Of a stretch of DNA of 6,038 bases, positions 1 through 5,593 are shown piece after piece. Position 1 is the first letter of the stretch, and each line of letters begins with the position of its first letter. The DNA lies in NCBI GenBank assembly GCA_016188625.1, contig JACPHL010000284.1, positions 1-6,038 of the forward strand, read 5' to 3'. The notes beneath the pieces are model-generated. The model made no database searches, had not been told where the DNA came from, and was given only the letters and a program-made list of their open reading frames with translations. The position numbers and the translations under genes were made by a program. Source of the DNA: Candidatus Rokuibacteriota bacterium. Its GTDB lineage: Bacteria; Methylomirabilota; Methylomirabilia; Rokubacteriales; JACPHL01.

Positions 1-230
1 TTTCCCAGCGGGACCTTGCCCGTGGCATTCGGGTTCCCTATCAAAGGGTGAACGAGCTGATCAACCGCCGACGTGGGATCACCCCAGGGACGGCTTTGCG
101 GCTGGCGAAGTTCTTTGGAACCTCGCCGGGGTTCTGGATGAACCTTCAGCTTCGGTGGGATCTCTATCGGGCGCAGGCAGCCGAAGCAGAGACTCTCAAG
201 AGGATTCGTCCCATTCGCGCTGCCGGGTGA
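1..230 (+). CDS. higA: HigA-family antitoxin, XRE-type helix-turn-helix, 5' end cut by window edge
   Basis: The reading frame is open from position 3 to the TGA at 228-230 and gives about 75 residues. They match the C-terminal three quarters of HigA antitoxins: a helix-turn-helix beginning SQRDLARGIRVPYQRVNELI, then the family signature GITPGTALRLAKFFGTSP and FWMNLQLRWDLYRAQ. HigA proteins are usually 95-105 residues, so roughly 25-30 residues, including the true start, lie left of the window; the GTG at 48 falls inside the DNA-recognition region and is not the start. HigA normally binds and neutralises the HigB ribosome-dependent mRNA endonuclease and represses its own operon, with higB upstream of higA; higB would therefore be outside this window. 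The C-terminus looks intact. Base composition here looks lower in GC than in the operon at 2764-6029, which is compatible with transfer. Family assignment is firm; whether the system is functional cannot be judged. Confidence 0.88.
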   Translation, partial: SQRDLARGIRVPYQRVNELINRRRGITPGTALRLAKFFGTSPGFWMNLQLRWDLYRAQAAEAETLKRIRPIRAAG

Positions 231-422: not shown

Positions 423-607
423 CAGGCGAGACGCCGGTACAGCTCCTCGTTCTTCCGCAGGACGCGCTCGGCAGCCGCCTTGAAATCGTCGCCTGGAGTC
501 GCCAGGAGGTCCACGATCGCGAGGTCCTCCGGCGCGAGCCCGAAGCGTTCGGCTTCGAGGCGCAGCCGTTCGGCCTGGGCGGGCGAGAGGTCGATGGTCA
601 GCTTCAT
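422..607 (-). CDS. Doc-linked antitoxin, small DNA-binding-type protein (61 aa)
   Basis: This 61-residue protein begins MKLTIDLSPAQAERLRLEAE, a short beta strand and helix like a ribbon-helix-helix antitoxin N-terminus, and ends AAAERVLRKNEELYRRLA. That tail is typical of the small protein encoded directly before Doc/Fic toxins, where it would occupy the toxin's active-site groove. The gene looks intact, but its partner is truncated, making it an orphan antitoxin. Its stop codon overlaps the doc start by one base. No Shine-Dalgarno sequence precedes the ATG at 607-605; instead a promoter-like pair (TTGGGC at 641-636, TACAGT at 619-614, 16-bp spacer) would start transcription at or next to the ATG, suggesting a leaderless message. 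Two palindromes lie in the same region and probably mediate autoregulation. The family assignment rests on the sequence pattern plus the Doc neighbour. Confidence 0.75.
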   Translation of the reverse strand: MKLTIDLSPAQAERLRLEAERFGLAPEDLAIVDLLATPGDDFKAAAERVLRKNEELYRRLA

Positions 608-693: not shown

Positions 694-1968
694 TCAGGGC
701 TGGGGCAGGGGCGGTCCAGACGGGAGGGAGGGGTTGGGGGGGGCCTCCAGGGGGTCCGGGCACGGGGTAAAGAGACAGAGGCGGTCTTCGGCGAGGGGGT
801 CGCCGGTCACGGTGAAGGCGCGCGCCCGGGAGCCGCCGCAGACCACCCGAAACGGACAGCGGCCGCACCGCCCCCGGAGCCGCTCCGGATCCCGCAGCGC
901 CCGGAAGAGCGGATGGGTGCGGTAGATCGCCACCGGGCTCGCCCAGCGGACGCTCCCGGCCGAGGCCCGGATGAAAGGGCTCGGGTGGACCTCCCCGCGG
1001 TGGTCGATGACCAGGAGTCCCTTGCCGCTCCCGACCGGGACCCGACGCAGCGGGTCGAGGTGCGAAGGCCAGCGGGACGCCACGGCCCAGACAGGACGCC
1101 CGTCCCGCCGGATCCCCCGTCGACGCTCGAGGATCACCCGTCGGTATTGCGGGGCCTCGGCGACCTCGACCAGGAACGGCGCCGTCAGCGAGAGGTCGTG
1201 AAGGTCGTTGAGGGTGGACTCGCACTCGAGGGGGGTCATCGATCCCTCGCCCTCCGGGGGGCCGGGGAGGAGGGGGAAGGAGACGCGCCAGCGCACGGCC
1301 CCGAGGATCGCCACCAGACTGGCCAGCAGGGGGAGGCCGTCGAGGGTCTGGCGGGTAAGTCGGGTGTCGATCTCGATCGGCACGCCGAGGGCCCGAGCCG
1401 CCTGGATAACCCGCATGGCGCGGTCGAACACGCCCCGGATCCCTCGCTGGCCGTCGTGGATCGCCGGGTCGGGGCTGTCGAGCCCCACCGCCAGGCCGGC
1501 GAGCCCGGCATCTTGCAGGGCCTCGAGGCCCTCGGTGGTCAAGGCGGCCGCGGCGCTCGATGCGAGGGCAACCGGGAAGCCGAGCTTGGACGCCTCCGCG
1601 GTGAGGGCGGTGGCGTCGCGGCGCGGGAAGGGATGGCCGCCGGCCAGGACGAGGACGGGGAGCGGCTCGCCGAACGCCGTCAACCGAGGAAGAAGCCGGT
1701 GCCGTTCCTCGAAGGTGAGGTCATCGGGGTCGGCTCGGGACGCCGCCTCGCCGGAGCCGGAGGGTCCGGGGGGGTCGGAGTCCGGGCTCAGCTCCCAGAT
1801 GACGAGGGCGGGCCGCTCATGAAGTCCCCGCGTCACCCCAATCACCTTCACCGGCCCTCCCACCGTAGCGGTTGAGACATCCCGGTCCCATGCGGGGAGC
1901 CCGTGCCCCACCCCCGAGGGGTGATCGACCTTCCGGGCTCGGTTGTCTTTCCCTTTTTCTACGGACAC
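694..1968 (-). CDS. TIGR04053-like radical SAM/SPASM-family protein lacking the radical SAM Cys motif (probable pseudoenzyme)
   Basis: This 424-residue protein follows the layout of TIGR04053-type radical SAM/SPASM proteins: PALVIWELS at 53-61, LTFEERHRLLPRLTAFG at 84-100, LVLAGGHPFPRRD at 106-118, GLDSPDPAIHDGQRGIRG at 162-179, and EAPQYRRV at 271-278. A C-terminal cysteine set lies at C368, C371, C377, C398 and C403 and probably binds an auxiliary [4Fe-4S] cluster. In active members residues 61-73 read roughly 'TRxCxxxCxHC'; here the segment is SPDSDPPGPSGSG, with no cysteine, and no other frame restores one. The 'GGDP/GGEP' SAM-amine motif reads GGHP. Reductive SAM cleavage is therefore unlikely. 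The frame is otherwise intact, and the GTG start at 1968 has TAGGAGG at 1985-1979. The first 40 residues are not part of the family core, so a later start such as GTG at 1851 is possible. The gene is divergent from the membrane-protein gene at 2019. Function is unknown; family assignment is good. Confidence 0.82.
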   Translation of the reverse strand: MSVEKGKDNRARKVDHPSGVGHGLPAWDRDVSTATVGGPVKVIGVTRGLHERPALVIWELSPDSDPPGPSGSGEAASRADPDDLTFEERHRLLPRLTAFGEPLPVLVLAGGHPFPRRDATALTAEASKLGFPVALASSAAAALTTEGLEALQDAGLAGLAVGLDSPDPAIHDGQRGIRGVFDRAMRVIQAARALGVPIEIDTRLTRQTLDGLPLLASLVAILGAVRWRVSFPLLPGPPEGEGSMTPLECESTLNDLHDLSLTAPFLVEVAEAPQYRRVILERRRGIRRDGRPVWAVASRWPSHLDPLRRVPVGSGKGLLVIDHRGEVHPSPFIRASAGSVRWASPVAIYRTHPLFRALRDPERLRGRCGRCPFRVVCGGSRARAFTVTGDPLAEDRLCLFTPCPDPLEAPPNPSLPSGPPLPQP

Positions 1969-2018: not shown

Positions 2019-2588
2019 ATGCCAACCCCCGCTCGAGGACGCGGGAGCCGGGCCGAACGACCGGGAGGGCGGCTCTGGCTCCCTCAGCAGACGGCACCCC
2101 GCCAGCGCGCGCCGGGGGAGAGCGGGCTCGCCCGATCCCGAACCAGCGGATGGCCGGCCTGGTGCTGCCCCGACCCGCCCCGGACGATCCGGCACGAGCG
2201 CTGGTGGAACGTCGCCCTCCGCACGGTCCACCTCGTCGGGTTCGGCCTCCTCCTCGGCGGGCACGCCTGGGGCATCGAGCCGGCGAGCCTCCGGGCGGCC
2301 CTCTGGGGTGTCCTGGCCAGCGGTGGCGGCCTGATGGCCCTGGAGCTCTTCAAGACCGCGCGCTGGCTCGTGCTGGGCAAAGGGCTCGCGGTCCTCCTCA
2401 AGCTCGGCCTGCTGCTGCTCGTCCCCGTCTTCTGGGAAGCCCGCCTCCCCCTCCTCCTGGCGGTCACGGTGATCGCCTCGGTCGGTGCGCACATGCCCTC
2501 CCGCTACCGTCACTACTCGCTCCTGGATCGCCGGGTCCTCGATCCCGCTGCCGTGCCCTCGGGCGACGGGGCTCGCGACCGCGCCTAA
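2019..2588 (+). CDS. small four-helix integral membrane protein of unknown function; N-terminus uncertain
   Basis: From the ATG at 2019 (TAGGAGG at 2009-2015, spacer of 3) this encodes 189 residues. The credible part begins near residue 58: RHERWWNVALRTVHLVGFG opens helix 1 (about 65-85), with helices 2 at 91-111, 3 at 122-139 and 4 at 142-157. A conserved-looking SVGAHMPSRYRHYSLLDRR follows at the membrane boundary, then a polar tail. Histidines H71, H82 and H158 lie in or beside the helices and could bind a metal or haem, which is speculation. I recognise the 'ASVGxHMPxRxRxY' pattern from small uncharacterised bacterial membrane proteins but know no function. Residues 1-57 are Arg/Pro/Gly-rich with codon third positions unlike the rest. 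No alternative in-frame start exists before the first helix, so either the start is right and the extension unusual, or a frameshift lies near 2186. The gene is divergent from the radical SAM-like gene and convergent with the operon at 2764-6029. Confidence 0.68.
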   Translation: MPTPARGRGSRAERPGGRLWLPQQTAPRQRAPGESGLARSRTSGWPAWCCPDPPRTIRHERWWNVALRTVHLVGFGLLLGGHAWGIEPASLRAALWGVLASGGGLMALELFKTARWLVLGKGLAVLLKLGLLLLVPVFWEARLPLLLAVTVIASVGAHMPSRYRHYSLLDRRVLDPAAVPSGDGARDRA

Positions 2589-3270: not shown

Positions 3271-4233
3271 TCAACCGGCGGTGAGCCGCGCCCCGCAGCG
3301 ACCGCAGAAGGCGAACCCCTCCGGGAGCCCCTTCGCCTGACAGCTCGGGCAGCTCCGCGCGTAGGGGCCCCAGAGGAACTCGCTCGACCCCCCTTCGGCG
3401 GCCCTCCGCCGGATCCCGAGGTAGTCCCAGGGGCGCTTCTCCGCGAAGGCCGTCATCCCCTCGTACGGCTCCAGGGAGGCGAAGTGGAGCGCCAGCCAGT
3501 CCCGGGCGTGGCCGATGGTCTGGTGCCAGGCCAGGTCCTTCCAGAAGTTCACCTGCTGCTTGGTGTAGCGGAGGCACTCCGGGAACTTCTCGATCAGCTT
3601 GTCGGCCAGCTCCCGGACGGCGGCGTCAAGCTCCCCGGCCGGGACGACGCGGTTGACCAGCCCCCACTCCAGGGCCTGCCGCGCGGTGATGGCGTCACAG
3701 GTGAAGAGCATCTCCCGGGCCCGCCGGTCCCCGATGTGGAGGGGCAGCCACTGGGTCGCGCCGCCGGCCGCCACGCTCCCGACCCTGGTCCCCACCTGGC
3801 GGATCGTCACGTGCTCGGCGGCGACCGCCAGGTCGCACGCCATGTTGAGCTCGTTCCCGCCCCCGGCCACGATCCCGTTGAGCCGGGCGATGACCGGCTT
3901 GCCGGCGTTGCGGATGGCGTCGAGGGCGCCGGCGAAGATCCCCATGTACTTCCAGTAGTCGCGCGGCCGGCGGGTGTAGGTGGAGGCGTACTCCCGGACG
4001 TCCCCCCCCGTGCAGAAGGCCTTCTCCCCGGCGCCGGTGAGGACGACGACCGCCACGGCGTCGTCCCAGGCGGCGTCCTGGAAGGCGGTGGTCAGCTCCT
4101 GGAGGGTGAGGGCCGTGTAGCAGTTGTACACCTCCGGCCGGTTGATGGTGATCCGCGCCAGCCACTCCCCCTTCTCGTACAGGATCTCCTTGAAGACGAA
4201 GTCCTCCGCCGCCCGCCGCTCGAACATCGTCAT
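3271..4233 (-). CDS. crotonase-superfamily enoyl-CoA hydratase/hydrolase, MenB/BadI/BamA-like, with C-terminal zinc ribbon
   Basis: This 320-residue protein has the crotonase fold signatures. The first oxyanion-hole loop is AFCTGGDVREY (72-82). The second is GIVAGGGNELNMACDLAVA (120-137). RQVGTRVGSVAAGG (145-158) and EWGLVNRVVP follow downstream. Loop sequences FCTGGD and QVGxxxGS place it nearer MenB, BadI (2-ketocyclohexanecarboxyl-CoA hydrolase) and BamA/Oah (6-oxocyclohexene-carbonyl-CoA hydrolase) than ordinary fatty-acid enoyl-CoA hydratases; the YTRRPRDYWKYM stretch after the first loop also recalls BamA. It is shorter than BamA (about 380). The C-terminus adds a short zinc ribbon, C295-P-S-C298 and C310-G-R-C313, unusual for crotonases. 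The ATG at 4233 overlaps the preceding small gene's stop (ATGA); a second ATG lies two codons later. The neighbouring BcrD-type activase supports a role in cyclic acyl-CoA breakdown. The exact substrate is not known. Confidence 0.85.
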   Translation of the reverse strand: MTMFERRAAEDFVFKEILYEKGEWLARITINRPEVYNCYTALTLQELTTAFQDAAWDDAVAVVVLTGAGEKAFCTGGDVREYASTYTRRPRDYWKYMGIFAGALDAIRNAGKPVIARLNGIVAGGGNELNMACDLAVAAEHVTIRQVGTRVGSVAAGGATQWLPLHIGDRRAREMLFTCDAITARQALEWGLVNRVVPAGELDAAVRELADKLIEKFPECLRYTKQQVNFWKDLAWHQTIGHARDWLALHFASLEPYEGMTAFAEKRPWDYLGIRRRAAEGGSSEFLWGPYARSCPSCQAKGLPEGFAFCGRCGARLTAG

Positions 4234-4403
4234 GCTCCCCTCCCTGGCTCCTGTAGTGTCGGGCTCTTCCCCTTCCCCTCGGGCACGTCCCGCGCCGGGC
4301 CCGAGAGCGCCGGCGGCCGACGGTCCTGGAACGCCACGGCGTAGAGGGCCGCCAGCGCGGCCAGCAGCCCCAGCGCCACCCCGAGCAACCAGCCCGTCTC
4401 CAT
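4230..4403 (-). CDS. 57-residue single-pass membrane protein, previously unrecognised small gene
   Basis: An ATG at 4403-4401 opens a 57-residue frame that ends in TGA at 4232-4230, sharing four bases (ATGA) with the crotonase start. A full Shine-Dalgarno sequence AGGAGG lies at 4416-4411, seven bases before the ATG. The protein starts METGWLLGVALGLLAALAAL, a single transmembrane helix at about 5-25, then carries an Arg/Pro/Lys-rich tail, probably cytoplasmic given the short acidic N-terminus. I do not recognise a family. The strong ribosome site, the translational coupling and its place in a tight operon argue that it is real. It might anchor or organise the operon's enzymes at the membrane, or simply set translation of the crotonase; both are inference. 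Confidence 0.68.
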   Translation of the reverse strand: METGWLLGVALGLLAALAALYAVAFQDRRPPALSGPARDVPEGKGKSPTLQEPGRGA

Positions 4404-4424
4404 CGTCCTTCCTCCTGTCCCGCG

Positions 4425-4779
4425 CTACACGTCCACCGTCCGCTCCAGGTGGACGAGCGGCCCGTGCCGGAACCCGCTCGACCAGGGTGCGCCCGATCCC
4501 GCGCCCGCGGTAGGGCGGGTCCACCCCGACGAGGTCGATCCAGCCCACCGGGCCGGGGATGCCGAACTCCGACTCGCTGGTCCAGCCCAGGAGGAACCCG
4601 ACCACGCGGCCGTCCACCTCGGCCACCAGCGACATCCACGGCGGCCGGAGGGCCGCCAGCTCGAAGCGCCGGGCCCAGTACTCCTTCCGGAAGCGGCCGC
4701 CGAGCCGCTCGTCGATCTCCACCACCGCCTGGAGGTCGTCGTCCCGGAGCGACCGGACCTGGACGGCATCTCGCCCCAT
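4425..4779 (-). pseudogene. GNAT-family N-acetyltransferase with internal deletion and frameshift
   Basis: From the ATG at 4779 the first 101 residues form a good GNAT N-terminal half: VRSLRDDDLQAVVEIDERL, MSLVAEVDGRVVGFLLG (49-65), then IDLVGVDPPYRGRGIGRTLV (81-100), where RGRGIG is the acetyl-CoA pyrophosphate-binding motif A. At about 4480-4472 the frame breaks: the expected C-terminal end, GFRHGPLVHLERTVDV and TAG at 4427-4425, follows immediately in another frame. Some 35-45 residues, including motif B helix and strands, appear to be missing, and the deletion is not a multiple of three. Read without shift, the frame runs on as missense into the crotonase. A sequencing or assembly error could cause the shift but hardly the missing segment. 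The start has GGGAGG upstream and lies 13 bp after the activase stop, so it was an operon member. Confidence 0.7.
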
Positions 4780-4792
4780 CGTCGGCCTCCCT

Positions 4793-5593
4793 TCAGGCGG
4801 CCTGGGCCCGGAGCTTCCGCACCCGCTGGAGCCCCAGGAGGGCCGCGCCCATGGCGGTGGTGTACTGAGGGAACTCGGGGACGTTCACCGTGAACTCCCA
4901 CTTCTCCCGGGCCGCTCGGACCATCCCCGCCTGGAGGGCCACCCCGCCGATGAAGGTGATCTCGCCGGCCAAGCCGACCCGCTTGAGCTGGCCCAGAGCC
5001 CGGTCGGCCAGCGAGTCGTGGATCCCGCGGAGGATGTCCTCCACGCTCCGCCCCTCGGAGATGTGGTTGATGATCTCCGACTCGGCCAGGACGGCGCAGA
5101 CCGAGGAGATCGGCTGGGGGCGCTCGCTCCGGAGCGAGCTGGGCCCGATCTCCTCCAGGGGGACCTCGAGGTACTTGGCCGCGCGCTCCAGGAAGCCCCC
5201 GGAGCCCGCCGCGCACTTCTCGTTCATGTGGAACTCCTTGACCTTCCCCGCTTCGCGCAGGCGCACGGCCCGCGTGGACTGGGCGCCCATGTCCAGGACG
5301 AACTGGGTCCCCGGGAAGGCGTGGTGGGCGCCGCGGGCGCCGCAGGTCAGGTCCGTGATCTGGATGTCGCGGAAGGAGACGGCGGCGCGGCCGAGCCCGG
5401 TCGTGGCGACGTAGGCCAGCTCCTCGGCGGTCAGCCCCGCCGCGGCCAGGGCCTGCTCGAGCGCCTCCCGCGCCACCCCCTCGAAGTCGGCCCGCGTCCG
5501 GACGAGGGCCTTTCCCCGGACCTCGGCCGTCTCGTCGAGGACGACGCACTTGGTGCTCCCGGCCCCCAGATCGATCCCCGCCACGTAGAGCAT
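4793..5593 (-). CDS. BcrD/BadG/HgdC-family [4Fe-4S] ATPase activase of benzoyl-CoA reductase or 2-hydroxyacyl-CoA dehydratase
   Basis: This 266-residue protein is a BadF/BadG/BcrA/BcrD/HgdC-type ATPase of the acetate kinase/Hsp70 fold. The phosphate-1 loop is GIDLGAGSTK (6-15), a TTGLGRAAVSF segment follows at 64-74, and phosphate-2 is VLDMGAQSTRAV (99-110). Cysteine C127 in MNEKCAAGSGGFLE and C166 in SSVCAVLAESEIINHISEG match, by number and context, the two ligands with which each subunit holds the dimer-bridging [4Fe-4S] cluster in HgdC. An adenine-site FIGGVALQAG and C-terminal AMGAALLG are present. The segments SSVCAVLAE, ILRGIH and DMGA (not DIGGQD) favour BcrD/BadG over HgdC. It would couple ATP hydrolysis to low-potential electron transfer to a catalytic subunit not in this window. 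GGAGGTGA, seven bases before the ATG, contains the upstream gene's stop codon, which suggests coupled translation. Length fits BcrD/HgdC (260-290). Confidence 0.9.
   Translation of the reverse strand: MLYVAGIDLGAGSTKCVVLDETAEVRGKALVRTRADFEGVAREALEQALAAAGLTAEELAYVATTGLGRAAVSFRDIQITDLTCGARGAHHAFPGTQFVLDMGAQSTRAVRLREAGKVKEFHMNEKCAAGSGGFLERAAKYLEVPLEEIGPSSLRSERPQPISSVCAVLAESEIINHISEGRSVEDILRGIHDSLADRALGQLKRVGLAGEITFIGGVALQAGMVRAAREKWEFTVNVPEFPQYTTAMGAALLGLQRVRKLRAQAA

Follow-up and report, generated by a model that had tools for sequence, protein, structure and literature searches.

A TIGR04053-like radical SAM/SPASM protein from Rokuibacteriota that appears to have lost its SAM site and kept an auxiliary cluster motif

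Work with the heme b synthase AhbD has shown that an AuxII cysteine motif, CX2CX5CX20-38C, is common to all AhbDs studied and that, in those of non-methanogens, a Glu and two Ser residues replace the cysteines of AuxI; what AuxII does in AhbD was left open (PMC10452713). By profile scores, AhbD and NirJ-type tetrapyrrole enzymes are also the nearest relatives of the TIGR04053 family of radical SAM/SPASM proteins, one member of which adjoins a nitrite reductase gene on a Thermus plasmid, while another lies near siroheme genes on a Deinococcus plasmid. Proteins of the pseudo-SAM/SPASM sort have already been catalogued, in the haloarchaeal NCBIfam family TIGR04347, and the protein described here is a variant of that sort. 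Judged by their titles, papers on well-supported radical SAM pseudoenzymes seem to be rare in the open literature, and our search for open-access papers on pseudo-SAM/SPASM or TIGR04053 proteins found none.

The gene in question occupies positions 694–1968 on the minus strand of a 6,038-nt contig of a Candidatus Rokuibacteriota bacterium, the whole of which is called the window here. Its 424 codons contain no stop, bearing out the long open frame described in an earlier, sequence-only reading of this DNA. A Shine-Dalgarno-like AGGAGGA (positions 1978–1984) lies 9 nt upstream of the GTG start at 1968, with the caveat that AGGAGGA occurs more often in the window than expected. That reading had also placed the protein, at full length, among TIGR04053-type proteins, and the profile agrees from end to end: residues 49–402 match profile positions 3–366 of 366 (1.9e-85), so that the complete radical SAM plus SPASM architecture is present. 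The score of 287.3 bits nevertheless falls below the curated cut-off of 395, in contrast to intact relatives at 474–512 bits and sisters with the motif intact at 474–477. The general radical SAM model PF04055 is passed with 39.3 bits against a gathering score of 29.5, and this match begins only at profile position 23 (residue 79), after the cysteine motif.

The motif itself is where this protein departs most plainly from its family. Residues 61–73, encoded at positions 1788–1750, read SPDSDPPGPSGSG and align without gaps to the ELTRACALACxHCRAEA of relatives, with Cys1 replaced by S64, Cys2 by G68 and Cys3 by G71. The loss of all three cysteines of CxxxCxxC, previously proposed from the sequence, is thus confirmed by alignment, as is the claim that no frameshift explains it: none of the three minus-strand frames holds a Cys codon at 1750–1788, which together with the gap-free alignment rules out compensating indels as well. 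The cysteines of the protein lie at residues 249, 368, 371, 377, 398 and 403; its first 248 residues are Cys-free, no CxxxCxxC was found anywhere in it, and these positions also rule out an alternative three-Cys motif elsewhere in the barrel. The replacement loop is rich in Gly, Ser, Pro and Asp and has no metal-site pattern.

The damage extends beyond the loop. We scored as kept or lost each alignment column in which 90% or more of 54 relatives agree. The protein keeps 0 of 10 such positions at residues 61–73 and 4 of 14 at residues 50–75, whereas the remainder of the barrel retains 20 of 32, the middle part 5 of 8 and the SPASM region (residues 311–402, positions 763–1038) 24 of 28; the difference between residues 61–73 and SPASM is significant (Fisher p = 2e-6). 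With the same count at 95%, hardly any position is lost from any part in the other relatives, save in L061, the most divergent of them. Specific losses in the barrel include the family GGD, matching the SAM amino-group motif GGE/GGD, which reads GGH at residues 110–112 (positions 1633–1641; change at 112), and SLDG, which reads GLDS (162 and 165). Further changes are QINT to EIDT (199 and 201) and the loss of the R of a GR pair (237) just after the barrel. From knowledge of the fold, we take residues 112, 162, 165, 199, 201 and 237 to lie at strand ends around SAM, as presumed contacts. A SAM-side placement also comes, at the level of sequence, from an alignment in which an intact sister was matched to BlsE (7vob) and PqqE (6c8v), which rank first among solved relatives in sequence and near the top in fold. 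These are active enzymes with RS clusters, in contrast to what is predicted for the present protein. PqqE is likewise the best solved fold for an AlphaFold model built with one distant relative, albeit a poor one (pLDDT 41). Since the RS cysteines and many other conserved residues at expected SAM-pocket positions are lost, the protein should not bind a [4Fe-4S]-SAM cofactor or make a 5′-deoxyadenosyl radical.

At the other end of the protein, the AuxII motif is satisfied by C368-x2-C371-x5-C377 (positions 838–867), three of the four [4Fe-4S] ligands, and by C398 (775–777), the fourth, which follows C377 after x20. Residues E271, S330 and S380 are retained as well. The two serines match by spacing two of the AhbD positions that replace AuxI cysteines, and E271 is plausibly the equivalent of the Glu. 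With AuxII cysteines and Glu/Ser/Ser kept, and with RS-loop and SAM-site residues lost, the auxiliary-cluster half of the protein is, as far as its residues tell, retained and its SAM half dismantled. AhbD (TIGR04545) is a close comparison, being the second-best family at 177 bits and sharing the AuxII motif and, in non-methanogens, the Glu/Ser/Ser set (PMC10452713); AhbDs, however, retain CX3CX2C and make heme, which this protein cannot do by such chemistry. The likeness to TIGR04053 lies in the end-to-end match, the domain order, the AuxII cysteines and nesting with the same-phylum relatives L002–L005, and the difference in the sub-threshold score, the missing CxxxCxxC, GGD turned to GGH and the other SAM-site losses. 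TIGR04347, compared by family name and profile score, is by that name likewise radical SAM/SPASM-like and regarded as pseudo-SAM. There the protein scores 98.7 bits, short of the cut-off of 525 and lower than its own intact relatives (150–181 bits), so its loss of cysteines looks independent of that family.

Strong matches to the protein occur in 47 of 95 genomes of the phylum, and the 55 rows of the tree set were the protein itself and 54 relatives, of which 53 belong to the phylum and one does not. CxxxCxxC is intact in 53 of the 54 relatives compared residue by residue, L012 being one Cys short; L037, whose motif reads N, was unscored. A further 32 relatives from outside the phylum all keep it: 29 from a 377-genome sample of another phylum, and three that are plasmid-borne (Haloferax, Deinococcus and Thermus). 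The conserved Cys-less clade that the sequence-only reading had looked to for support did not emerge, as no second such member was found in the 95 phylum genomes or among 30 relatives from the 377 genomes of the other phylum, and the copy at 694–1968 is the only one to lack all three cysteines among the relatives searched. Searching with the SPASM half reached further radical SAM families, where every full-length member sampled has CxxxCxxC; L114 is a truncated fragment. The matches on plasmids, most of them from haloarchaea and Thermus, proved to be TIGR04053 proteins of the ordinary kind, and viral contigs gave no close relatives. The source genome, a draft of 2.6 Mb in 344 contigs, is the sole family representative in the sample; at 84% completeness it yielded no second, intact TIGR04053 copy, its other matches being only HpnH and two TIGR04311/TIGR04317-like proteins. 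Since the closest relatives share only about 45% protein identity, saturation of dS is to be expected.

Three of the relatives deserve mention in their own right. In L012 (G065:C71) the middle Cys of the motif is replaced (CALARVHC) and the rest is intact, which could be a second, partial loss or a sequence error. In related genomes, L115 (G003:C325) is a TIGR04053 relative broken by a deletion within its barrel, and L114 (G069:C71) is a broken copy of which only a SPASM-bearing remnant is left.

Taken together, these comparisons make it fairly likely that the 694–1968 protein is a pseudoenzyme, as was first proposed. The fuller account that we favor, and hold to be somewhat better than an even bet, is that it is a catalytically dead, fast-evolving TIGR04053/AhbD-like member of the radical SAM/SPASM proteins with one auxiliary [4Fe-4S] site, acting by binding. 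A partial barrel and the SPASM domain would still fold and hold that one cluster, and binding would have replaced radical chemistry; as to what is bound, our guess is a ligand of the tetrapyrrole type, an electron carrier or a partner protein. The binding or scaffold role is thus something that we infer from sequence. The pseudoenzyme part of the original proposal stands on the loss of other SAM-site residues, the kept SPASM and AuxII residues and the persisting coding composition; against it count the accelerated branch, the want of a Cys-less clade and an evidence base that consists of a single sequence, taken from a 6-kb contig of one draft genome. It is conceivable, if tentative, that the protein represents a new pseudo-radical-SAM lineage of independent origin, whose SAM half was dismantled and whose SPASM cluster was kept as a tetrapyrrole-modifying enzyme became a binding or electron-transfer protein. 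With a protein that has an auxiliary cluster but no SAM site, the role of a SPASM cluster on its own could be tested directly.

The strongest alternative is that the catalytic role was lost, for example with its substrate, and that the gene is a decaying pseudogene yet to acquire a stop, a possibility that we regard as real but doubtful. Evidence in its favor comes from the tree, where the protein groups with L002, L003, L004, L005 and six others (97/94 support); descent from within TIGR04053 is thereby supported, with the caution that a long branch demands. Its tip branch, at 1.59 changes per site, is the longest in the tree and roughly three times that of the sister L002 (some 0.54); the overall acceleration is 2.5–3 fold. 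Broken down by region, its branch takes up 59% of tree length for residues 50–75, 8.8% for 76–235, 5.4% for 236–310 and 5.7% for 311–402. The corresponding lengths for the protein and L002, counted from the node that they share with L004, are 9.2 vs 0.12, 1.43 vs 0.48, 1.44 vs 0.61 and 0.79 vs 0.30, so that even its SPASM evolves about 2.6 times faster than that of L002. The pattern is therefore one of general acceleration plus collapse at the loop, and the general part leaves relaxed selection open for this gene. Decay would also suit the source genome, which has a ferrochelatase and only weak cytochrome-d1-like matches, so that it may be able to do without a step of the AhbD or NirJ type; and the remnant L114 is a precedent for a broken TIGR04053 gene in a related genome.

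Against decay, the SPASM ligands are kept even though the loop is saturated with changes: if SPASM had decayed as slowly as the state of the loop allows, at least 24 of 28 positions would be kept with a probability of 6e-11. When neutral change was simulated at one substitution per codon, only 1–11% of runs, depending on composition, stayed free of stops. Codon-position GC in the barrel part (0.79/0.54/0.90) is much like that of intact sisters, as against 0.66–0.74 for the intergenic DNA of the window, and coding constraint thus has not decayed. The stop-free frame, the codon composition and the putative ribosome-binding site argue against both sequencing error and long neutral decay, and would support continued translation and constraint.

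A further alternative is a working enzyme whose auxiliary cluster or altered barrel carries out new chemistry without SAM. Such an enzyme would fit the retention of the AuxII ligands and of SPASM residues on the substrate side, but no new conserved catalytic motif is recognizable from the single sequence and the loop shows no metal-site pattern, and we consider it improbable. Least probable of all is that the motif was altered by an error of sequencing, assembly or binning, a possibility that a single draft genome in 344 contigs and a window numbered as its own contig might suggest, but the segment shows substitutions rather than indels with the frame kept, about 19 other conserved positions are also lost up to 1 kb away, and ordinary relatives of the adjoining membrane-protein gene occur in the phylum, with 44–64% identity.

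As for the ligand or partner of the favored binding protein, its neighbors in the window do not decide the matter: they are a membrane protein, a CopD-like protein, an enoyl-CoA hydratase, a BcrAD-type activase and a Rid protein, and no conserved gene neighborhood pointing to a partner was found. The divergent membrane-protein gene was considered as a conserved partner and rejected, being widespread in the phylum and not tied to TIGR04053 genes.

Several other features of the window can be recorded. The membrane-protein gene just mentioned (2193–2585, plus strand) encodes a small multi-helix protein of an unnamed conserved family, without a Pfam match, that is present in 26 of 94 phylum genomes, mostly at 44–64% identity. 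At the contig edge, a frame cut short at 1–230 (plus strand) looks by eye like a HigA-like helix-turn-helix protein, and a small frame at 425–607 (minus strand), again by eye, like a ParD-type antitoxin, with no Pfam match. The activase at 4793–5593 (minus strand) is of the BcrAD/BadFG type of acyl-CoA dehydratase activases (TIGR00241), the dehydratase/reductase subunits being absent within the contig. Finally, a single open frame at 3271–4779 (minus strand) joins the start of a GNAT acetyltransferase, from 4779, to the enoyl-CoA hydratase; what remains of the GNAT domain seems to be encoded on this strand in a different frame, which makes a frameshift in the GNAT gene probable.
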